A stretch of DNA of 64,000 nucleotides, taken from assembly GCA_036874045.1 (NCBI GenBank), contig CM072347.1, forward strand, positions 808,501-872,500. Reading direction: 5' to 3'. The DNA is from Cymodocea nodosa (taxonomy: Eukaryota > Streptophyta > Magnoliopsida > Alismatales > Cymodoceaceae). A program made the translations under genes and the position numbers. A model generated the notes under the pieces. That model was given only the letters and a program-made list of their open reading frames with translations, made no database searches and had not been told where the DNA came from. Numbering within the stretch: position 1 is the stretch's first letter; every line of letters begins with the position of its first letter. Positions 14,401-48,746 of this stretch are shown here, piece by piece.

Positions 14401-17400
14401 AATTTCACTGTCGGATTCAATAAGAAGATCACTTATATCCTCATAATTTAGAATAAAAAAGGAAACCCTAAAACGTGCACAATCTGTTGTTATGTTTTAA
14501 CAAACCTTGCAATAATCGCAAGATATTGTGAAAAAAAATTAGGCAGAAAGACAAGTCATCCTTCCAAATGTATTCATACAAATATCTCTTAATCTTGCAA
14601 GATATAAGTGATTCCACGTATTTTGTTGCCTCTACTTCACTATGGCATCAAAGAATCTGATGCAATAGTTCACAAAGATAAATATTCTTGTATTTTATGC
14701 AAGCTTCTTTTCCTGTAAATAAATGTATAATATGTATGAAAGAAATGACATGAAGTTCATCTAGATATGATCATAAAAGTTACCGTCTCATCATCATGAT
14801 CCCCAATTACAGTGAAATCTTTGCAGAGTACGTTTGGGATACCACACTCGTTGAGATTCATGCTAATAAAAAAGACCCGTGGCAAACTGACCTCGACATA
14901 GATGCTAGGAATTCTAGATAAGCTATGTGGTCCTCCATATTCCAGTATAATATCAAATTTGCTGAATGGAAATGATGGAAAAAGATGTCTTGCAAAATTA
15001 TACAAAATATTGTCAAAATGATTACCTAGGATAAGTATATGATTAGAATTCATTGGGATGAATATTACAGGAAGATGAAAACAAAGAAGATACCTAAAAA
15101 AGAACACCATGATTCTAATTAAATAACAATAATAATACAACAGACATAAAATCTCTGATATTTAATAAATAAGTAAATAAATAATAATAACATTAATGAT
15201 TAAAGGAAAAATCAAACATCCAAATTGCCTTTTTTATCTTTGTCCAAGGGCTTCAACGACTTCATCATTTTTACATGAAGAGTAATGTTTCTAGTACCAG
15301 CTCATTCTATAGAACAAAATTACAGCAGTCTTGAGCAAACAAGATATGTTTCTGCTTTGCAAGAATTCATCAATGATAATCCAACAATCAAGAACTAGAA
15401 CCTTATAGTGCTACTGAATTCTTCAAGAAGTCATGATAACCACAATTTCTATAGAAGTGGCATTGGACTCAGCAAAAAATGCATTATCATTCATTTCATC
15501 ATGAATAGTTATCATAAAAAGATGCAATTGCATGAGTTAGAACCCATAGAGTTGTCAAACTAAATGTTGTACTTTGTAATAATGCAGAGTAATTTTGATA
15601 TTTAAGTTAGTCTCCAATTATAGAAAATATAATGAATGATATGTCATGCAGTTTTAATGCAGAAGAGCTTCCAATATAGGATTCATATTCATTTATATGA
15701 TGAAAAACATACTTGCATGATATAATCAAGCAATTATAGTGCAGAAGTGCTTCCAATATATAATTTGTGAATTCACCATTTTCCATCATATGCTGACGAT
15801 TAAGAGGTGCACTTGTTGGTCTGACTTCATGAAAAGGCATTTTCATGGAAGAAAGCTTTTGTTTCAGTGCCAACCAGAAGATTTGATCAGCTACAATTAA
15901 TATCTTTTTCCCATCTGAGAATGTGTTCTTTCTCAGAATCTCTTCAATGATAGACAGAGATGGATGTGATTCTATAAGTTCTTTGTCAACCTTCCTTCGT
16001 GCATCTTCTAACAATAAGAGAATTGCTCTTGCTCTTATAGACAAATGGCAATTGCATTGAGAGAAATTTTTTATATAGAGATAAGATGAATGTATGCCAA
16101 AGAAACACAAATAAAAAGTTAATTGTTTCAACATATATAGAATAATAAATGATATTGCTTTCTCATCTGTACAAGCTGAAGGAGGCTTTTTAAGATTACT
16201 TTCTGTTATCATTTCCAACAAATTTCCCTTAGACAGCCTGAGAACCTCAATATTTGTAATAGGGGAGATTGTAGCTTTTAGATTTGTCTCTTGCTGTGAA
16301 ATATGTAGGTAACATTTAGAGATAGCATCAATAAGGGAAAGCATATCATCTGACAGGCAAAGTTGAAGCACTTCTATGTCCCACTGCTTCAAAGTTAATT
16401 CATTGGAAGCACCTGGAACTGAATTTTTACCAAATGAAAGGGGCGCTTTTTCATCAGTTTCATCAATGTTTGCATCCTTTTTATTTCTCATTGATGTGCT
16501 ACGGCGAACATCTAAGAAATATTTGAGATCATTGTGCTGCGACATAGATTCAAATACAGAAGAAACATTTTTGTTACCCATCTTTGGTAATATCTCTCCA
16601 TTGGTATTTCCTTTCTTTTGATCATCAGAAGATATATCTGGAGCAGAAGTCTGTGGAGTAGCATCCCTGTGATGAGACACAGGCAGTTCCAGAGGAACAT
16701 CCATGTCATGAAATTGTATTGATCCTTCTGGACAATCACCCAAGAAACATATGTCAATAGAAGATATCTCTTGTCCACAGTAATCATCAGTAGCAACACT
16801 GCAACCATTTACCTTGGTCAGCATATCCATGAAAGTATAACAAATTTCACGACTACATGTATTTTCTAGTAATAGATGCCAATCTAGATATATCCCATCA
16901 CATGCTGACATAGGGTATGGATCTAATCTAGCTAAAACTTTTTCAAAAATGGCACATGATGATATTTTCTCTATATCATAAAAAATAACTGGTGTAGGCA
17001 ATGACTTAAACGCTTCATCCACGGGAGCAAGCTCAGAACTAACGATAAAATCATAAAACTCCCCTGCAGAAATGCTGTCATTCCTAAATGTCTTTTCAAG
17101 TTCTTCTTTTTCATTCTTTGCCAACAGACTTCCAAATGCTTCATAAGATGGGAAAGAAAGACAATCAAGTATCTGAACTTCCTGAAATTGTATAGAGCAA
17201 GGTTGCTGTAAAGAATCTTCTGTTGAACTTGCAGGGTATATTGCTGAATTATTTTCAATAAGCACAATATCTTTGAGACAAATTAACTCCAATTCCAAAA
17301 TTGACTCAAGCGAAAGAGATTTAAGTGTTTTAACACCATTGTCAGCACTAGCAGATCCAGGACAATTCTCCAAATCACTGGTATTTCCAGAAAATCGAAA

Positions 17401-19102
17401 ATCAACAGAATTTGTGAAAATATCCTCATTTTCAACTCTATGCTCTTGACGAAGCTGCAGGACCAGGAAATCAAAAGCTTCTTTAGTTGATAGATATGTA
17501 TCATTGTCCAGCCCAATTTCACTGATTTCAAAGAGGGGTGAATCCTTTTGTTGTATGATTTTCCCAACAGGTTTAGAACAAGAAATTTCCCCAGAGGAAC
17601 TCCTGCTTTCAACCATATCAAATACATCATGAAAATCTTCAATGTAATAAAGAGATTTCACAGCTTCTTCCGGATATGGAATTTCACATCCCAGTTCGTT
17701 AGTGCTAGTATGCTGAATGAGAACAAAGGTCAATCTCATTAGATAACAAACTTTGCAGTTTTAAGCAGAATAATAAAATTTGATTGGTATAATCTTCATA
17801 TATGCTAACTATTATCATGATTATTTTGTTCAGATTTTAATATGTGTTTCCTAAAATCCCAACATTTTAAGCGTGTGTTGACTAATTGAAGTTAATGATA
17901 TATATTATCTCAAATTCCTACTAACTGAATATCTTGAACCAGAAAACATGAGTTTGTAACAGCCAACCTTTGTAGAAACGGCTAAGCCCTATTATTCAAA
18001 AAAAAAAAGAACATTCCATGGAAAGCAGGACAGGTGAACATGGAAATCACCACATAGAAATGAAATCAGGATAAAGGCTTCAGCCAGGGTAATTTTTAAA
18101 AATCTTCCAACATATAATGACTAACATTTTTATTTTCTCCACAGTGAATATCTAACACACTCTGTATTTTTGGGCCAGCGAAATTCATGAAGCAATCATT
18201 GCTATTTCACATTACCCAACCAAAACATTTAAGACAAGAAACACAGAAAGAATAATTTCTAGAAAAAAAAAGCATTTTCGAATGACTAAAGTTACATGAT
18301 ACATATCAATCAAGGGGAGATGAATTCCAGTCCATTCGTCTATCTTGGCACGAGAACTTTCATTATCTCCACGAAACTACGATCAAAATAGATGAGATAA
18401 CAATTAAATTCCATATAAAAGTGACTTAGCGAGAGAAACGTGATTGAAATAGCAATCCGCTACCAAAATCTTGAAGCCTTACCAGGGCGGTGCCCATCTC
18501 CGGTATTTCAAACTGGAAAACCACATGATTCTCATCAGAAAAGCCATTTCCCTAAAAATAATACGATACAGACCTCCTCTGAGTAAAAAAATCGAGGAGA
18601 AACGCAAGTACTCCACCCCGTTCCCATACCTTCGGGATCCAGAGTCCCGTAACTCCCCGCGCAGAAACCTCTTCGTCTTCACGAAGTAAGTCTTCTACAT
18701 TCTAGAACAAAAGCACAACCGAACTGAATCACACCATAAATCAAGCATCCAACGCTTTGTAAGCACGGGAAAAGTACACATCGGCTACTGCACCTCTGAG
18801 ATCAGGAGGTTTACACCTCCAAATCGGCAGTCGTCGCCCCTACCGATCGCTTCAGGTATGACATCGGAGAGGAAACAGCAGAGAGCGGTGTCGATCGGGA
18901 GCCGCTCAAGGTCCAGAGAGAGAGGGAGGAAGTGAGCGAGACCGGGAAAGGAAGGTAGACCGCACGGCGGAGTAGGAGGGAGATCCGGAGATGGGAAATG
19001 GAGATGCGATTGCCGGAGGAGACGGTAGTAGTGGTGGTTGTTCTTCTCGTGTGGCTTCGATCTGCCGATGAAGAAGTCGGTAGCGAGGTATCGGCCTCTC
19101 AT
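11483..19102 (-). CDS. SHOC1: SHOC1 (SHORTAGE IN CHIASMATA 1), XPF-like meiotic crossover protein, Zip2 homologue
   Basis: SHOC1 pairs with the ERCC1-like protein PTD in the ZMM group and promotes class I crossovers on meiotic chromosomes. Minus-strand exons: 19102-18794, 18551-18483, 17712-15713, 14988-14784, 14230-13727, 13160-11676, 11596-11483. The phases join to 1561 aa, close to Arabidopsis SHOC1. The N-terminus MRGRYLATDFF and the exon 2 peptide FQFEIPEMGTAL are family signatures. An XPF-nuclease-like fold lies around residues 790-1030. The block SRRSSYQKVLALEKGGLQV leads to VERN (967-970), where active XPF has ERK. A helix-hairpin-helix-like segment, LAESFLVKFPSINPLSAH, is near 1098-1115. 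The long first part (exon 3, 2.0 kb) is poorly conserved, as usual for this family. The exon 1 donor (GAG|GTGCAG) and the last exon are the least certain parts; the last exon peptide (SFVKTGNEKQSKLAW) fits the family end. Confidence 0.93.
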
Positions 19103-27699: not shown

Positions 27700-27777
27700 A
27701 GACGTAGAGAACACAAAATGCACAATACTGTAGTAGACATATATAAATCCATATATATAATATGATGACTGCATGCT

Positions 27778-27783
27778 TTTATT
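27778..27783 (-). terminator. Candidate poly(A) signal of the left Gly/Ser-rich gene
   Basis: AATAAA on the minus strand, about 160 bases past the stop codon. The same hexamer in the same context (CCCTTGAAATAAAAGCATG) is present in the right copy. Confidence 0.5.
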
Positions 27784-27943
27784 TCAAGGGCATTCAATGT
27801 AAATACACGAGTGACACAAACGACATCAGCTTAATTTGGGGGATGAGATGGATAAGAATACGTACGTATGGATGCATGCAAGCACTGTAATATGGCATAT
27901 GTAACGCGCGTATCATAATATATATATATATATATATGAATTA

Positions 27944-28549
27944 CTACGGCGCTTTGGTAGATGCAGAGCTGGAACCAGAGGAAGATCCGTAGCCGGAGCT
28001 GCTCGATCCATCTCCGGTGGTGGAGCTGCCGCCATTGCCACTACCTCTTGCACTTCCACTGGAACGGTATCTATTGTAAGGGTCCTCCCTATTGTAGACG
28101 GACCCAGACCCACGGCCGTAACCAGATCCGGAAGCACGTGAGTCTGCAGTTCCTCTGGTGGATCCACCGCCGCGTCCGGCGGCCGTCCCAGCGCCGGTGG
28201 TGGTGCCATCGGGTGCGGCGCTTCCGGTTCCGGTTCCGGATCCGTACGCGGAACCGCCCGCGCTCCCTTTCCCCTTGCTCGACCCGCTCCAGCTTCCACT
28301 TCCCCTTCCGTACGAGTTGGATGATTCGGATCTATTTCCGGATCTTTTGTACGTGTAAGCGGAGCCCCCTCCGGAAGCGTAGCCGTAACCGGTGGCATTG
28401 CCATTCTTGCCGCTGGACGCGGAACCGCCGGCGCTGCCACTTCCTTTGCCCGCGGTCTCTCCGGTTAAGATCCTGGAAGAGGAGGCCATGGCCACGCAGA
28501 GCATGGCCAAGAGAGCGATTGCTGCCGCCGGCAAGCAGAGACGAGCCAT
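27944..28549 (-). CDS. Secreted Gly/Ser/Tyr-rich protein, left copy
   Basis: Single exon, 201 aa. The start is the ATG at 28549-28547, reading MARLCLPAAAIALLAML; an in-frame ATG two codons upstream is possible in this copy only. A signal peptide spans about residues 1-22, with likely cleavage after AMA. The mature part is low-complexity: SSSRILTGE followed by Gly, Ser and Ala repeats with scattered Tyr and Arg (GYGYASGGGS, SNSYGRGSGSW, RYRSSGSARGSG). There is no Cys in the mature part. This composition suggests a cell-wall glycine-rich protein, but no defined family domain is seen, so function is not assigned. The coding sequence matches the right copy except for one synonymous GCA/GCG change near the start. 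The gene points away from its twin. Confidence 0.85.
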   Translation of the reverse strand: MARLCLPAAAIALLAMLCVAMASSSRILTGETAGKGSGSAGGSASSGKNGNATGYGYASGGGSAYTYKRSGNRSESSNSYGRGSGSWSGSSKGKGSAGGSAYGSGTGTGSAAPDGTTTGAGTAAGRGGGSTRGTADSRASGSGYGRGSGSVYNREDPYNRYRSSGSARGSGNGGSSTTGDGSSSSGYGSSSGSSSASTKAP

Positions 28550-28673
28550 GCCCACTACGTACTCGATATATATGTAGATGAATCTATTATATATCAGGAG
28601 GAAATTAACAGCTAGCTGAGAAGATCCAGCTCGTTTAATTTGGTGATGAGGAGGAGAGCAAGGGAGCGGCGGG

Positions 28674-28681
28674 TATTTATA
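28674..28681 (-). promoter_or_regulatory. TATA box of the left Gly/Ser-rich gene
   Basis: TATAAATA on the minus strand about 125 bases upstream of the start codon, inside a GCTATAAATACC context shared with the right copy. Confidence 0.7.
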
Positions 28682-28865
28682 GCTGAGCTCTCATGGATGG
28701 AATTCCTCATAATATATTTTATATACTTGAAGGTTGAAAGTGATGATGAGTAGATCACTTCTCACGTTTGCTGATTAACTTTACTTGTATCACAATCATA
28801 TCTTGCCAACTTTGATTGCAGTTAGCTGGATCTTATTATTGTTCATGCTTGCAAAAGTATATACT

Positions 28866-29399
28866 CAATCATTATATTCTTATTGAAAACAATGACCAGA
28901 GAGCTCTATCATACATTAAAGCCTTTAATATATCTACTTTTGACCTGAAATCTTCTTTCATCTAAGGAATGTGTTTGACTTTACATTTGATCATAGCCAA
29001 AAGGCCAAGAAAGGTATAGGAATGTGTTTGAGTTTACATCTTCTACTTTATTGTGCACGATTTTCTTACCATCAAATTGCTTAAAGAATATCACCTTCAT
29101 TATTACAAATTGTCTGTATACTAGTTCCTCTTCATCCCGAAGGAAGTTAAATAAGACCCTCCATCTCATTTCATTCAACTTTACACTTGGGATCATAACA
29201 TCGTATTCACATCACCTACACCTAAAGCCCCCACACCAAACCGGAAGGACAGCCTGAGAGTATGAGTTATTTGGGTATATAAATTGACTAACACTTTCTT
29301 TATACATACATAAACAAAGTATTTATCCACTTTTTTGGTTTTCCTTAATCACAGCCTATCTACTTAGAATCAAAAGAGAAGGTGAAGGAGGTGCAGAAT
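28866..29399. other. Spacer DNA between left arm and copia relic
   Basis: AT-rich, with no recognised coding sequence or repeat. Confidence 0.4.
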
Positions 29400-29653
29400 G
29401 GAAAGATGGAGATTGAATTGGTGCTTCAAAGTAATTTTTCATTAACTTTCTTAGAAAATGATTTACAGTGTAAGATGCTTTATATATATAGTACAGCATT
29501 TACAAAGATAGTAAATACAAAAGAAATGTAACTACAATCAATCATAATCTTGATAGATAATGAATAGAATATCAAAAAATAGTAACTGACTAGTGAGAAG
29601 ATGAGTTCGTGGTCTTAGCCCAAATGCCACAAGGTAAGTTTGTGATCTTAACA
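29400..29653 (-). mobile_element. 3' LTR remnant of a Ty1/copia element
   Basis: On the minus strand the sequence after the polypurine tract starts TGTTAAGATCAC, as copia LTRs do. It contains a promoter-like CTATATATATAAAGC near 29,480-29,494. The end of the LTR is not clear, because no matching terminal inverted CA or target-site duplication could be fixed. The lower boundary is a guess. Confidence 0.5.
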
Positions 29654-29664
29654 GCCCCCCTCAA
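29654..29664 (-). other. Polypurine tract of the copia element
   Basis: The minus strand reads TTTGAGGGGGGC directly before the TGTTA of the 3' LTR. This is the normal plus-strand primer site of an LTR retrotransposon. Confidence 0.65.
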
Positions 29665-32640
29665 ACTAGTGACGAGGCATTGATCAACAGCTTGCGATGG
29701 TAATTATCAAAATACTGAGATGAAATTAGCCTAGTTAAGGGATTTGCAATTTGATCACTAGATGGAATATATTGAACCTTGAAATGTTGCTTCCTTATGT
29801 GATCTTTGAGAAAATGCACATCTATATCAAAATGCTTTGTTCAAGAATGGTGTATGGGATTGGTAGTAAGATATATAGCACTTATATTATTACACCATAA
29901 AATAGGCATGGGTGATGATATATGTAACTCTTTCAATAGTGCTTGCAACCATAAAATTTCACACGCTGTCAAAGTTAGTACCTGTGATTCAGCTTCTGTA
30001 CTTGATCGAGAGACTGCATTTTGTTTTCTTGAGCACCATGAGATTAGATTTTGCCCATAGAAGATACAATAACCAAAATGAGAATAACAATCATCTAGAT
30101 CTCCTCCCCAATTTGCATCGCTAAAGGCTTGGAGATGGCAAAATGTTGAATGTTTATATCTCAAACCATGATTGGGTGTATCCTTTAAGTATCTAAGTAT
30201 TCTTTTGGCAGCTTTAAGATGTTCTATGGTAGGAACTAAAAAAAATTGGCAGATCTTGTTCACAAAATATGCAATGTCAAGGCAAGTTATGCACAAATAC
30301 TGAAAGGCTCCAACTAAGCTTCAATATTCTATAGGATTTTGAAGAGGATTGCCACTGATTTTGGTTAATTTGGTTGATGCTGCTATTGGTGTGCCATAAG
30401 ATTTAGCTTCATCCATCTTAAACCATTTCAAAATATCTACTAAATACTTAGATTGAGAAAGATGAAGACTTTGTCCATTGCGTGTAACTTGAACACCTAG
30501 AAAATAGTGTAAGTCACCTAGATCTTTTAAGTGCAAAGGTGTTGGTGAGAGATTGAATTGAATATTGAATATCATCTAGATTAGACCTAGTGATAATGAT
30601 ATCATCTACATATATTAAGATATATGTAAATGATGAATCATTCTTCTTGATAAAGAGAGAAATGTCACTCTTAGATTCCTGAAAATGATCCTTCAACAGA
30701 AAAGCTTGTAATTGATTAAACCAGGCTCTAAGGGCCTATTTTAATCCATAGACCGAACATTGCAATTTACATACATGATTTGGAAATTTGGGATCAATAA
30801 ATCTAGGTGGTTGATACATATAAATATCTTCTTCAATATTACCATGCAAGAATGCATTAGAAATGTCTAGTTGGCGTATAATCCATCCATTATTAAATGC
30901 ATTGGAGTATTATTTTGTTGAGAGCATGTGGAATGACATGGCAAAATAATTTCTAGATGTATGACATGACTAAATTTTTCTACATCTATGGAAGGAGAGT
31001 TATGAAGCCAAGAATTGAGAAAAAAATCATTCTCATTAAATGTGGCGTCGTGTGATATATATATATGTGTTGATGCTTAGGAGAAAAGCATAGATATCTT
31101 TTATGAGTAGTAGAATAACCAAGAAATATGTAAGGAACAGTCTTATAATTGAATTTATGATTGTTGTATGATCTTAGGTTTGGAAATCACTTACATCCAA
31201 ATACTCTAAGTGATGTATAATTAGGAATTGTATGAAATAGGATGTCAAGTGGGCTTTTGTTGTTCAACTTAGGAATTGACATTTGATTTATTAGATGGAC
31301 GGCTATTTGGAATGCCTTTGGCCAGAAATATTGTGGCAAATTTGTATAAGCTAGTAAGGTTAAGTCGATATCAACTATATGTCAATGCTTTCTTTCTGTT
31401 GATCTATTTTGCTCATGAGTATAGGGACAAGCAAATCTTTGTTGGATGTCATTTTCATGTAAATAAGTTTTGAATGTCAAGAACTCTCCTCCATTATCAC
31501 TCTATAATGTTTTGATACTCTTCTCCAATTATTTTTCTATATAAGTTCTAAAATTGATGAATGTTTGAAGTGCCTTGGATTTGCAGCCTAAAGGAAATAA
31601 TCATGTAAAATGTAAACTATTATTGGCAACTATAGATAGAGTTCTTTGTTGATTGGGGTGTCCCAATCATGTATGTCATACATCCATGGAAGTTCTAAAG
31701 GTCAACATAACTTGTGCAGATCTAAATCTATCATCCTGCTTTGATAATTGATATAAGGAATTACTAGCATAACCTTGTCATACTTGTTGATGTGTTGCCT
31801 AATCCTTAATAGAGAATCCAAGATTGTCAAATTCAATATTCATTAGATTATCTTGACAGAACATATAAACTAAGAGTAAATTTTTCTAGATATCTAGTAC
31901 AACTAAAATATCTTTGAGAAAAATGTTATCAGCATTAGTTGCTACGGTTGAGTTTCTAGTGTGCATGATGGGGAGCTACACATCATTTGCCCTAGCAACT
32001 GAATCAGGCCCTGCAGATGGAGCACTAATAGAGAGATTTACAATATCATTAGTGACATGATGTGTGGCTCTTGAATCAAAATACCACAAAGAGTTTTCGC
32101 CAACTGTATTGCCCTTATAAGTATAATTCACATTTGAGTTTGCATGAGTAAGAGCATATACTTGCATATCTAAGCATTTAAAACAATTTAAAGCAGAATG
32201 CCCTACTTTACCACATATCTGACATTGAATTTTGTTGTCATTATTACTAGAATTGTTGTTATTGCAATTGCCCCTACCGCTAGCTTGATTGCATCCTCAT
32301 CCTCCTCTCGGACTGTGGTTACGATTGCTGGAAATAAAGTTCACTAAAGGAGGAGGATGTAGTTGATAACGGTGAAATTGCACTTCATGATTGAGTAATA
32401 TACCTTGCAAATCTGCAAAAGAGAGAGCTGAGACTTGGGTGGTAAGACTGGTTATCAGATATTCATACTCTGATCCTAAGCCTCCAAGTAGATATAAAGA
32501 AACTTCTTCATTTAACAATGTTGTTCTTGATACAACAAGGTTGTCAACAAGAGAGGTTGCATGAGTGATATAATCACTCATGGATAATCTTCCTTTCTTT
32601 AGACTTTGTAGCTCAAATTTAAGTTATAATAGTTGAGGTG
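29665..32640 (-). mobile_element. Decayed Ty1/copia retrotransposon body (gag-PR-INT-RT-RNase H)
   Basis: Read on the minus strand from 32,640 down, the domains come in copia order. A gag fragment is at about 32,581-32,297. A CCHC zinc knuckle (CQICGKVGHSALNC) is near 32,226-32,185. The protease start WYFDSRATHHVT is at about 32,088-32,053; the usual DSGA is DSRA. Integrase traces with YIFLGYS lie near 31,130. Reverse transcriptase runs about 30,950-30,320 with YVDDII near 30,610, followed by LKDLGDLHYFLGVQV. RNase H runs about 30,296-29,690 with AFSDANWGGDLDD and SRSSTEAE. Stops and frameshifts break every domain junction, so it cannot be active. It sits in the spacer of the inverted duplication. 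Confidence 0.92.
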
Positions 32641-34319
32641 TATTTACACCTATTATCAAGCACTTACTCCTGTAAGAACTTTAGAGTTAATTATGTTTAG
32701 ACAAAAGTAGAACCAAGATGGATGACTATTTGGAAAGTTATCGTGCAATGTCTATAGACAGTAATGCTAGCTCTATTTAAATGTTGACAAACTATAGGTG
32801 TATAACATTTACCCAATTTACGTGTCAACATTGCGGACTTTGTCTCAGTTAGTAATCTCAATTAAATTAGTAGATGGGGTCACTTAAGGTACCTTCAACT
32901 AATTAAGAATCTCTACGGAATAAAATATGTGATATTTGGAGAAATCTATCATGTCAGGGCCTAGCAATGCCTGTTATAAGTTTTTATCTTCTTAGATATT
33001 TATGGTGTATATCAGGTCGTTTGGATATTCATTGAGACTTACATGTTATTACTTTTATAGATACTTTTAGAAGATAAAAAAATAAAAAATAAAAAACTTG
33101 TTAAAAAAATATATAAAAAAAAAAACTTGTTAATCTAAAGTAGATTAATTCACCACTTGGCACGACACCTGTGGGGTTAAGGAAGAAAATATCCTAACTG
33201 ATTAACAACCGATCCTATCGGCACAAAGAGACATTCGATACTGATGACATGATGCCAAGAGAATACAACATTTAGCTCTGATTCCAAAATCAAGAGATAT
33301 AAATCACGCATATAAATACTAAAATGTAATGCATGCATGGTAACGTAATATTAATACCTGAAGTGGTACATTTTCATTTCATAAACATGGTAATGTTAAT
33401 TTTATACATCATAATGGAGTCCAGGCTAACAAAAAATATAACATGACCTTGTATCAGAATGGTTAAGGAGTCTCACCATCCATTTGACTATGAGTTTCAA
33501 TTTCCTAAAAAATTAGGGTTCATGAAGTACTTTACAAAAAATAACAAGCTTAGCAATAAACTCCATGGTCGTTTTCTTGAAACTCTTTTGCCTTTGTTGC
33601 TAAGCGTGAGCATAACGTACGTAAAGATTCATCATCCTCTATAATCAATTATAAATGAATCATTAGTTTGACAAGAGTTGCGAATGATTACTAAAAGATA
33701 ATTTTATTAAGGAAGACGGCCATAACAACACTTACGCAAAGTTGGCGAAACATGTTTGCGGTGGAAGTAAAGTTGAGAATTAAATACTTTTAATTATATA
33801 AATCATCATGATTTACAGAACGAATATATTAGCATGAATAAGTTTGATATAATTGATTAAAGGAAATAATAAAGTGCATTATTTTTTATTTTATCTTTTG
33901 CAGATAGAGATCTATTAACTACTTTAACTTTTAACAATTTTTTAATATTAATAATAATATTTTAGATGAAAGAACATCTAAGCTAAAAGTATATATTTTA
34001 AAAACTTCAATGTACATTAAAGACGAGAGTTTGTATGTCATTATATGTTATTTAAGGTGAATATAACGAATGAATGAATGATTTTACAAATATGGATGAG
34101 ATATATATATCATTCCAATAACGAAGGTGATATACTTTAAACAATTCAATAGCTAGAAAATCGTGCATGATAAAGCAGAAGTCGTAAACTCAAACACATT
34201 CTTTAGATGAAACAAAACAGTATTTAAGTTAAAAATAGAAATTTTAGAAGTTTTAATTCACTTTAAAGATTGGAAACTTGTTTATCATTGTTTTTAATAA
34301 GAATATGATGATTGAATAG
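32641..34319. other. Spacer DNA upstream of the copia relic
   Basis: AT-rich and without recognised genes. A primer-binding-site-like word lies near 33,270-33,283: the minus strand reads TGGAATCAGAGC, one base off the usual initiator-Met primer site TGGTATCAGAGC. I could not find a 5' LTR matching the 3' one. The sequence 33,060-33,135 is A-rich. Confidence 0.35.
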
Positions 34320-34490
34320 ATACTTTTACGAGCATTGACAATAATGATAATTGGCATTGAAGTTGGCAAGATATGCTTGTGATACAAGTAAAGTTAATCA
34401 GCAAACGTGAGAAGTGATCTACTCGTCATCAATTTCAAACTTCAAGTATATAAAATACATTATGATGAACTCCATGCATGGGAACTCAGC

Positions 34491-34498
34491 TATAAATA
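34491..34498 (+). promoter_or_regulatory. TATA box of the right Gly/Ser-rich gene
   Basis: TATAAATA 116 bases upstream of the start codon, in the same context as the left copy. Confidence 0.7.
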
Positions 34499-34606
34499 CC
34501 CACCTCTCCCTTGCTGCTAAATATCCACCAGCTATACAAGCTCGTCAGCTGCTCCCTCCTGATATATAACAGATTCATCTACATATATATCGAGTACGTA
34601 GTCGGC

Positions 34607-35212
34607 ATGGCTCGTCTCTGCTTGCCGGCGGCGGCAATCGCTCTCTTGGCCATGCTCTGCGTGGCCATGGCCTCCTCTTCCAGGATCTTAACCGGAGAGA
34701 CCGCGGGCAAAGGAAGTGGCAGCGCCGGCGGTTCCGCGTCCAGCGGCAAGAATGGCAATGCCACCGGTTACGGCTACGCTTCCGGAGGGGGCTCCGCTTA
34801 CACGTACAAAAGATCCGGAAATAGATCCGAATCATCCAACTCGTACGGAAGGGGAAGTGGAAGCTGGAGCGGGTCGAGCAAGGGGAAAGGGAGCGCGGGC
34901 GGTTCCGCGTACGGATCCGGAACCGGAACCGGAAGCGCCGCACCCGATGGCACCACCACCGGCGCTGGGACGGCCGCCGGACGCGGCGGTGGATCCACCA
35001 GAGGAACTGCAGACTCACGTGCTTCCGGATCTGGTTACGGCCGTGGGTCTGGGTCCGTCTACAATAGGGAGGACCCTTACAATAGATACCGTTCCAGTGG
35101 AAGTGCAAGAGGTAGTGGCAATGGCGGCAGCTCCACCACCGGAGATGGATCGAGCAGCTCCGGCTACGGATCTTCCTCTGGTTCCAGCTCTGCATCTACC
35201 AAAGCGCCGTAG
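34607..35212 (+). CDS. Secreted Gly/Ser/Tyr-rich protein, right copy
   Basis: Single exon, 201 aa, protein identical to the left copy. The start is the ATG at 34607. The longer open frame upstream is leader sequence and starts before the TATA-predicted transcript. There is a signal peptide (LPAAAIALLAMLCVAMA) and then a Gly/Ser-rich mature chain ending SSASTKAP. The short flanking tract CCTCCTGATATATAA...GTAGT in the leader is shared with the twin with two base changes. It is transcribed away from the twin and from the copia relic. The function is probably structural or cell-wall, by composition only. Confidence 0.85.
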   Translation: MARLCLPAAAIALLAMLCVAMASSSRILTGETAGKGSGSAGGSASSGKNGNATGYGYASGGGSAYTYKRSGNRSESSNSYGRGSGSWSGSSKGKGSAGGSAYGSGTGTGSAAPDGTTTGAGTAAGRGGGSTRGTADSRASGSGYGRGSGSVYNREDPYNRYRSSGSARGSGNGGSSTTGDGSSSSGYGSSSGSSSASTKAP

Positions 35213-35372
35213 TAATTCATATATATATATATATATATTATGATACGCGCGTTACATATGCCATATTACAGTGCTTGCATGCATCCAAACATTCGTATTC
35301 TTATCCATATCATCCCCCAACTTAAGCTGATGTCGTTTGCGTCCCTCGTGTATTTACATTGAATGCCCTTGA

Positions 35373-35378
35373 AATAAA
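35373..35378 (+). terminator. Candidate poly(A) signal of the right Gly/Ser-rich gene
   Basis: AATAAA about 160 bases after the stop codon, conserved with the left copy. Confidence 0.5.
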
Positions 35379-35440
35379 AGCATGCAGAAATTATATATAT
35401 ATGTCTACTACAATATTGTGAATTTTGTGCTCTCTGTCGT

Positions 35441-36286: not shown

Positions 36287-36961
36287 TCAAAAACAAGAGG
36301 TGGTGGACGATTCTGATATTCTCAGAATTTCCTCGAGATAATCCGCGCCCAAATCCTCCAACTCCACCACCGAACGCTCCTCCTCCTCCGCCGCTGCCGC
36401 CTTGGTTAGTCCCTTCCTCCCTTTCCTCGCCGCCATGCTCTTCCTCCTCATCGAGTTTCTCCTCTTCAACTCCATCGCCGGCGACGACGACCCCTTCCAG
36501 TAGCTGATGTCGCGGAGTGACTCCTGGACGGCCTCCACGGGAAAGTTGAGGACGGCGGAGATGCCCCTCATCGAGAAGGCAGCCTGGTCGTAGGCCATGG
36601 CAGCCTCCTCCGCCGTGTCGAACGTCCCGAGCCAAACCCTCACCCCGTTCCTTGTAGAGTCCCGGATCTCCGCCGCGAACTTCCCCCACGGCCTCCGCCT
36701 CACCCCTCTGTATACCTTACTCTTTCCCTGCTGCTCTGCTTCCCCCGCCTCCACACCCACCATTTCGTCCACTGGCCGGGAGTGGGAGTTTGCGGTGGCC
36801 TCCGCCAGGACGCCGAAGAGGAGCATCTCCTGCGAGTCGTTCTCGTTGAATGGGAGGGACTCCGGCCACCAGGCGGCGGAGGAGGAAGAAGCGGAGGAGG
36901 AGTAGTCGGGGGAGGAGTAGGAGAATTCCGAACTAAGCGAGTGGGTCGAGAAGATATCCAT
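36287..36961 (-). CDS. AP2/ERF transcription factor, group IXc (ERF1/ORA59-like)
   Basis: Single exon, 224 aa. The AP2 domain spans residues 84-141: [19 protein letters not shown], then [20 protein letters not shown] and [15 protein letters not shown]. The AAEIRD signature marks ERF type, expected to bind GCC-box DNA in the nucleus. The N-terminal region is Ser-rich and acidic ([20 protein letters not shown]), and the C-terminus carries [18 protein letters not shown]. The latter is the CMIX motif of group IXc members such as ERF1 and ORA59, which combine ethylene and jasmonate signals in defence. A basic linker ([19 protein letters not shown]) may act as a nuclear signal. The upstream region carries a TATA box, paired TGACGTC sites and a G-box. 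Confidence 0.95.
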
Positions 36962-46557: not shown

Positions 46558-46799
46558 ATTTTAAATGTTCATTTTAATACAATCATATCATATTATTGGT
46601 TAATACAACATAAATAAAATCGAACCATGACCCTCTTTATTTCACCTATTACACAATATAACATAACACAAATGAGTTAGTTAACACGGTACAACTCCTT
46701 AACACCTGTAGACCTAAGTAGTCTTCACAAAGAGTTGTATTTTAGCATTCAACTAGGTTAGTTGTTACCTTAGGTTTATGTGTGTTAAATATATTATAA

Positions 46800-47312
46800 T
46801 TAAATAAAACAATATATTATACTTTAATTATATTAATAATATATACTTTAATTATAATTAATTTTAAATAATAAAATAATTAATTAAACAATAATAGTTC
46901 CTATATTACTTTCCTAACTTTCAAATGGGGGGAAGTCTTAAAACTTGAAATCTCTGGTCTTTTATTCTTATGTGACGTAATCTAGGAAGCTTGGAAAACT
47001 TTTCCAACTTTCTAATTCCTAATTTTCTAAAGTATTATATGTGACGCACAGAAAGCTAGGAATTAGAAAATTAAGAAAATTTTATTAACTTTTTGAGATT
47101 TGTGCCATATAAGAAAGTTAGAAATAAATGCTCAACTTTCCTACTTATAAAAGATTAGATATTCCAAACTTCTAGACTTCTATTTATCTGAAAGTTGAGA
47201 AAGTAATATAGAAATTATCTTTGTTTAATTATTTATTTTATTATTTAAAATTAATTATAATTAAATTATATATTGTTAATATAATAAAAGTATAATATAT
47301 TATTTTATTTAA
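46800..47312. mobile_element. Foldback element, about 510 bases, candidate hairpin MITE
   Basis: The outer arms 46,800-46,924 and 47,188-47,312 are inverted copies of each other at roughly 90% by eye. Inner segments also pair, for example 47,007-47,028 with 47,050-47,072, so nearly the whole element folds on itself. There is no coding capacity. A target-site duplication cannot be fixed because both flanks are AT-rich. Confidence 0.7.
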
Positions 47313-48078
47313 TTAAAGTATTATATTATTTAAATTATTACTTTGTAATATACTTTGTATAATATAGTATTGTTTTAATTAAAATTACTTCGTATATACT
47401 TTAATTAATATAATTAAAGTATATATTGTTAACATTGTTTTATTTAATTAATTATTTTAATATTATTTTATTATTGTTAATATTATTTAATTTTATAATA
47501 TTAAAATCATAAATATTATTATTTAATATATAATATTAAAATTCCAATTATTATATAATTTTCTTAACTATCGGTAATACAAATAACTTCAAAATCTACT
47601 TTTCAACTTTTTAACTTCTTCGAAAGTACAAACAGGCTTTAGGTATCACAAACAGAACATTAATACTCTAAAGAGGAAGTTTCCTTTGGTATAAATGTCA
47701 AAAATACACAGAAAATGTCAAGGTCTCTTTAATTATATCAACTAAGGGTGGATGATCTTAACTTTTCCTTTTAGACAACGACAACTATAAAATATTTTTA
47801 TCAATATTAATTGAGAAAGATATTCCTGACACTCTACGTAATATTTTAATCTCAGTTTTCGATGACTTGACTCCGAGGATCGAGGAACGATGCCAACGGA
47901 AGCAAAAACGCCCGACTTACCAACTTGACGGCGGCGACTTGGCTGACACAATAAAAAAAGCACACGTGCGTATTATGCAAGTGGGATGGACGGTGGAGTT
48001 TTGATTGGATATGGCTGGACAACCAGCAGACATGTGTTGATATTTGTTATTTTAGACAACGACAGATTAGTCGATAAA
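47313..48078. other. AT-rich DNA, then distal ERF upstream region
   Basis: 47,313-47,560 is almost pure AT. GC rises after about 47,860. No gene recognised. Confidence 0.4.
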
Positions 48079-48323: not shown

Positions 48324-48746
48324 ATGGAGGCTTCTAAGGGTCCAGGCGGTGGCGGTGGCGGTGGCGGTGGCGGTGGCGGCAAAGAAGGAAGAGCAGTACG
48401 GTACCGAGGAGTCAGGAGACGACCGTGGGGGAAGTACGCCGCCGAGATTCGAGACTCCACACGCCACGGTGCTCGTGTGTGGCTCGGCACCTTCGACACC
48501 GCCGAGGAGGCGGCTAAGGCATACGACCGGGCGGCGTACGCCATGCGAGGTTCCAATGCGGTTCTCAATTTCTCCAGGGACGGCGAACCACCCAAACCGC
48601 CGGAACCACCACCGTCCTCGCCGTCTCTGCTCCGGCCGCAAGACGGGGAGAGGTCGGACGTGATAGTGCTGGAATGCCTCGACGACAGGCTCCTGGACGA
48701 GCTCCTCCTTCAACCTCCCAACGATGCAGAGCCCAAGAAGCAGTGA
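48324..48746 (+). CDS. Small AP2/ERF transcription factor, group IXc (ERF095/096/098-like)
   Basis: Single exon, 140 aa. The AP2 domain spans residues 27-84: [54 protein letters not shown]. The short length and the C-terminal [16 protein letters not shown] are typical of the small group IXc members ERF095 (ESE1), ERF096 and ERF098 (TDR1), which act as activators in ethylene, jasmonate and stress responses. A run of 12 Gly (residues 8-19), encoded by alternating GGC/GGT, lies directly before the DNA-binding domain. A Pro-rich stretch follows it. The start is fixed by the CACCATCATGG context after a TATA box. A second group IX ERF lies 11 kb away in opposite orientation. Confidence 0.94.
48345..48380 (+). 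repeat. (GGCGGT)n coding microsatellite in ERF
   Basis: 36 bases of alternating GGC/GGT encode 12 glycines. It is likely length-variable between individuals. Confidence 0.85.

Follow-up and report, generated by a model that had tools for sequence, protein, structure and literature searches.

A probable tract of recent gene conversion within an older inverted gene duplication of a plant genome

Gene conversion of nearby inverted paralogs is a process already known. Among its described cases are the hsp70 genes of flies, for which Bettencourt and Feder (2002) is reportedly a further reference. The sections of PMC3071340 that deal with these genes describe pairs in an inverted "basic unit" whose coding regions have been homogenised by conversion, with a homogeneity that fades away from the coding sequence. 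The hsp16 modules of C. elegans and other adjacent paralogs, as presented in the relevant part of the review PMC3966223, are likewise close inverted paralogs, identical inside and diverged outside, and are read there as the outcome of conversion. The same part cautions that, where identical genes have unrelated flanks, the gene only may have been duplicated recently. Our literature search found no close plant parallel for an inverted pair with conversion.

The pair studied here lies in a 64-kb window (the whole stretch of DNA analysed, positions 808501-872500 of sequence C21) of what is probably a flowering-plant genome, totalling 374.6 Mb over 28 sequences. Its two genes, A and B, are divergently transcribed (A leftward, B rightward) and are carried by inverted arms of approximately 1.3-1.4 kb each, whose limits depend on the aligner at both ends, separated by a spacer of approximately 5 kb. 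The features are as follows.

27706..29104, minus strand: left arm of the inverted duplication, an inverted match to 34117-35435
34117..35435, plus strand: right arm of the inverted duplication, an inverted match to 27706-29104
29105..34116, minus strand: spacer with reverse-transcriptase element remnants
27944..28549, minus strand: coding sequence of gene A, 201 aa, intronless, with a hydrophobic N terminus and a Gly/Ser-rich remainder
34607..35212, plus strand: coding sequence of gene B, 201 aa, intronless, encoding the same protein as gene A
28674..28681, minus strand: TATAAATA, a probable TATA box for gene A, called from the motif alone
34491..34498, plus strand: TATAAATA, a probable TATA box for gene B, called from the motif alone
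27918..27937, minus strand: (AT)10 microsatellite in the 3' UTR of A, equal in length to that of B
35219..35238, plus strand: (AT)10 microsatellite in the 3' UTR of B, equal in length to that of A

The shared protein is composed of about 24% Gly and 23% Ser. Its N terminus is hydrophobic (GRAVY of 2.0 across 23 residues), the part that follows is basic (pI 10.1), and a Pfam search with the protein gave no match. An AATAAA motif is found close to 27784, on the side of gene A. Other Pfam domains among the open reading frames of the window are GTP_EFTU, DEAD helicase, AP2 and pieces of Pumilio/NABP. A larger gene array was rejected, with only two copies in the window and three in the genome search, the latter count being a lower bound.

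The spacer holds two adjoining pieces of RVT_2 (Pfam; 30514-30909, minus strand), which we take to be the sign of a copia-type element, and an open reading frame (31976-32296) with what we presume to be a zinc-knuckle-like motif, which had no Pfam match. Self-comparison with E values up to 1 revealed no LTRs from which this element might be dated. Parts of the inner arms and the spacer resemble a dispersed repeat that recurs on three or more other sequences of the genome; they lie at 28901-28965 (approximately 28842-28965 by a wider estimate), 33776-34032 and 34214-34329. The arms are collinear on both sides of the region of highest identity, implying that the original duplication was older and larger than this region. 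These homologous flanks rule out that the gene by itself was recently duplicated. We also rejected the whole arms as a fold-back or haplotype artefact of assembly, the DNA outside them being unrelated between the two sides, and a gene-carrying mobile element, since the arm ends, inspected by eye, showed neither terminal repeats nor target duplications.

The alignment of the arms comprises 1,319 columns with 105 mismatches and eight indels. All eight indels are outside a block of low divergence.

27869..28585, minus strand: left copy of the low-divergence block, a putative conversion tract of 717 nt with two mismatches and no indels
34571..35287, plus strand: low-divergence block, right copy, partner of 28585-27869

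An initial annotation, made from the letters of the window, had proposed a conversion tract of about 730 bases inside older inverted arms, with outer coordinates 27870 and 35286, and had suggested aligning the arms to follow divergence along their length. Each of these coordinates falls one base inside the ends of our best block, whose near identity is indeed flanked on both sides by older, collinear homology, and divergence is not uniform: a two-rate model (2/717 mismatches in the block, 103/602 outside) improved the log-likelihood by 77 over uniform divergence. Two MAFFT settings gave identical figures. The arms agree without a break over up to 654 nt, a length not approached when the 105 mismatches were permuted 20,000 times (maximum of 163), in a test that weights all sites equally, though the block is mostly coding.

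The block spans part of the leader, the entire coding sequence and 75 bp of the 3' UTR. The arm alignment gave the same single difference among 606 coding bases (GCA/GCG, synonymous) that had been annotated. It also agreed with the reported near identity of about 50 leader and 75 3' UTR bases, with 2/51 differences in the core leader (28600-28550) and 0/75 in the core 3' UTR (27943-27869), including the (AT)10 repeat of equal length. The agreement of all reading frames, listed alongside, is true, but it is a consequence of the DNA identity and adds no evidence of its own. Outside the 5' edge, the leader carries the indels that had been described, with 16/42 differences in its near part (28656-28601), and the promoter (28824-28657) differs at 17/166 positions, a figure close to the 10/96 counted before. 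On the 3' side beyond the block, differences amount to 7/57 (27868-27812), 0/43 (27811-27769) and 6/48 (27768-27706). The core had been called sharply bounded, a description to be qualified in two respects: a stretch of 48 nt within the promoter (28795-28748) is identical, and so are the 43 nt at 27811-27769, 57 nt past the 3' boundary, the latter making the 3' edge less clean than the 5' edge. Identity in the block is nonetheless higher than in homologous DNA on both of its sides, and extends to silent and untranslated sites, as expected of interlocus conversion.

Could the two genes have stayed alike with no copying between them, through purifying selection acting at the level of protein, codons and RNA? 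Coding sequence makes up 606 of the 717 bases of the block, and both open reading frames are intact and encode one identical protein, as selection would have it. Yet only 1 of approximately 160 synonymous sites differs, against about 15 expected from the divergence of the flanks (P = 1.9e-6), and the deficit persists when zero amino-acid change is permitted (P = 3.8e-6 with the flank rate, or 0.003 if that rate is halved). Codon use is not extreme, given a GC3 of 0.62 in the coding sequence. Among non-coding positions only, we counted 2/126 differences in the core versus 30/314 in the best-aligned flanks (Fisher test; P = 0.002); these flanks, used in the tests, are 28824-28657 and 27868-27706, and the part resembling dispersed repeats was excluded. 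Selection on the protein would also leave unexplained the 75 identical nucleotides of 3' UTR with their microsatellite.

A third member of the family weighs against selection as well. The protein search of the genome identified at least three genes (A, B and one paralog), the paralog being located on the same sequence as A and B, approximately 664 kb away, with 50% identity in protein and 64% in DNA. It thus differs at half of its residues, and of the 99 codons that keep the same amino acid as in A, 48 are different codons. The comparison of A with this paralog over 198 codons gave a dN of 0.47, a dS of 1.10 and a dN/dS near 0.42, values that are approximate because the protein alignment is of low complexity and dS, at about 1.1, is near saturation. 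With this dN/dS and the flank rate, 33 differences would be expected in the coding sequence of the pair, and one is seen. The divergence of the paralog and its dN/dS point to weak constraint on the family. It is not plausible that protein or codon constraint has restricted 606 bases to a single change, and we consider selection without copying extremely improbable. The initial annotation had reached the same view of protein selection, which the synonymous sites, the 3' UTR and this one diverged paralog now support.

The same pattern could be produced by the assembly, if the sequence of one core had been used to fill or polish the other, or if the second copy were not as drawn. The identical run of 654 nt is longer than a short read, and the assembly is scaffolded, several of its 28 sequences being sized in round multiples of 2,500. 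Nevertheless, there is no N anywhere in the window, the flanks on either side differ between the copies, and close to the 5' edge of the block there are two private differences. Mis-mapping of reads would hardly erase the approximately 30 to 70 differences of cores diverged by 10%, and wholesale gap filling would be needed. An artefact of this kind is, in our opinion, improbable. The block is best read as the product of recent interlocus gene conversion, a reading that we hold with high confidence.

The pattern is read directly off the alignment; from it we infer the copying event, its recency and the route of repair. An ancestral gene, with at least approximately 500 bp upstream and approximately 240 bp downstream, would have been duplicated in inverted orientation, after which the two copies would have diverged by approximately 10% or more and gained indels and, in the left arm, a small retro-insertion. 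The old retroelement between the copies may predate or postdate the duplication. Much later, one copy may have served as repair template for the other, with approximately 717 bp copied over, and the simplest route would be that a break was repaired by homology between inverted copies lying near each other. Divergence is 0.28% in the block (95% upper limit of 1.0%) and 9.6% or more in the flanks, suggesting that no more than roughly one-tenth of the time since the duplication has passed since the homogenising event; the flanks on the two sides are possibly under partial constraint themselves, which makes this ratio conservative. If dated by its coding sequence, the pair would seem brand new, and it is the flanks that reveal an old duplication.

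The retro-insertion is one-sided and datable, and lies in the flank of the block.

28985..29017, minus strand: 5' fragment of U2 snRNA (U2 nt 1-33), 33 nt, left arm only
29018..29037, minus strand: upstream 20-nt direct repeat (target-site duplication), one mismatch to the downstream copy
28965..28984, minus strand: downstream copy of the 20-nt direct repeat, partner of 29018-29037

Relative to the right arm, the left arm has 53 extra bases, corresponding to the 33 nt of U2 and one copy of the 20-nt repeat. The right arm carries a single repeat copy (34184-34203) and no insert, and therefore represents the empty site. The insert matches nt 1-33 of plant U2 snRNA at 30/33 positions, and the best of 200 shuffled windows matched at 24/33. 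Its score with the Rfam U2 model is 30.7 bits (gathering score of 46), with an E value of 1.2e-4 when 301 bases were scanned and of 0.025 for the whole window; a scan of the window at the Rfam gathering threshold found nothing. The fragment starts at nt 1 of U2, ends internally and passes directly into the second repeat with no A-tail, and it has a target-site duplication with an empty site. Judged by these sequence features, the insert is a "tailless" retropseudogene.

We found at least 16 matches to U2 in the genome (46 of 23,124 candidates scored), including three long ones and ten short 5' fragments. Three of the 16 listed matches were left out, and the ten short fragments, together with the copy of the window, gave the 11 fragments examined. 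Under our extension rule they end at U2 nt 35-43, and BLAST against genomic U2 placed the ends slightly differently for four of them (L010-L013). Direct-repeat scores reached at least 13 in six of the 11 fragments and at least 9 in eight, compared with at least 9 in 3 of 110 mispaired upstream and downstream flanks used as a control (maximum of 11). By these scores, the putative target duplications are convincing in six of the 11; three others (L010, L018 and L021) have no convincing repeat. In seven of the eight cases scoring at least 9, the repeat starts within the last 2-10 nt of the fragment, an overlap expected if the RNA primes through short matches to the target, although it is partly a consequence of how fragment ends were defined.

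With the U2 retro-insertion and remnants of a reverse-transcriptase element close by the block, the template of conversion might have been a cDNA (reverse-transcribed mRNA) instead of the DNA of the other gene. The block is contained in the probable transcript, as marked out by the TATA boxes (28681 and 34491) and the AATAAA near 27784, but it ends before both likely transcript ends. The diagnostic loss of introns is impossible in an intronless gene, and DNA-templated conversion requires no added assumption. We regard a cDNA template as very improbable, and there is a correspondingly slim chance that the tract records RNA-templated conversion through the reverse-transcription activity behind the left-arm U2 fragment.

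On the favoured reading of conversion, this pair is a clean, short and well-bounded case of concerted evolution between head-to-head plant paralogs. With promoters that have drifted and proteins that are identical, it is also a situation in which expression alone could diverge. The U2 insertion and its empty site point to a small plant family of such insertions, of which there are few plant reports. According to the portion of PMC5322556 that describes them, tailless retropseudogenes occur mostly in therians, and also in a lizard, with eight derived from U2 in Zea mays, and we found no further plant report in the open-access literature. The left-arm insert shares with those U2 retropseudogenes the U2 5' end, the internal cut, the absence of an A-tail and the target-site duplications, and differs from the mostly therian cases of that portion in belonging to a plant genome, one with at least six convincing cases. 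The fly hsp70 genes, in the sections of PMC3071340 mentioned above, form multi-gene clusters studied with population data, whereas we describe a single plant pair of another gene in one genome. The flanks of hsp16 are, in the corresponding part of PMC3966223, completely diverged, unlike those of A and B, which are still alignable and thus exclude a recent gene-only duplication. The collinear homology of these flanks answers the caution raised there for the nematode paralogs.

The U2 snRNA fragment in one arm of the inverted duplication, which carries one copy of the Gly/Ser-rich gene per arm, is a tailless retropseudogene, and its insertion into the left arm postdates the duplication of the arms. 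The features at the arms are as follows:

29037-28965: 33-nt U2 snRNA 5' fragment with 20-nt direct repeats on both sides, left arm only
28901-28965, 33776-34032 and 34214-34329: dispersed repeat, length about 55-275 bp, at the inner margin of each arm

The right arm presents the empty site for the U2 insert at 34184-34203. Comparison with other sequences of the genome revealed that the dispersed repeat has 75-83% identity to copies on C13, C12, and C5. At the left arm's inner end (29075-29110), 36 of 36 bases match a site on C11, to which the right arm is 91% identical over 33 bases.

At least 10 short U2 5' fragments besides that of the window are present in the same genome (L010-L013 and L017-L022), half of which (5/10) are flanked by direct repeats scoring 13 or more as putative target-site duplications. 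One further candidate short U2 5' fragment was found on C9. The 3' limits of the short fragments lie near U2 nt 35-43. Their branch-site-pairing region reads AAGTGTA in all except L018, L021, and the fragment of the window, and AAGTCTA in L004 and L005, the two top-scoring full-length U2 loci among the candidates scored. Since the U2 candidates of the genome were scored only in part, these two loci are not necessarily its principal U2 genes.

The window also contains the following:

46797-46965 and 47147-47315: inverted repeat, 169 bases per copy
36287-36961: AP2-domain gene
15607-17739: 710-aa ORF

The copies of the inverted repeat, which is MITE-like, are 85% identical and separated by 181 bases. 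Part of the AP2-domain gene recurs in opposite orientation at 48387-48532 (76% identity). No Pfam match was found for the 710-aa ORF, which may be similar to the plant meiotic protein SHOC1.
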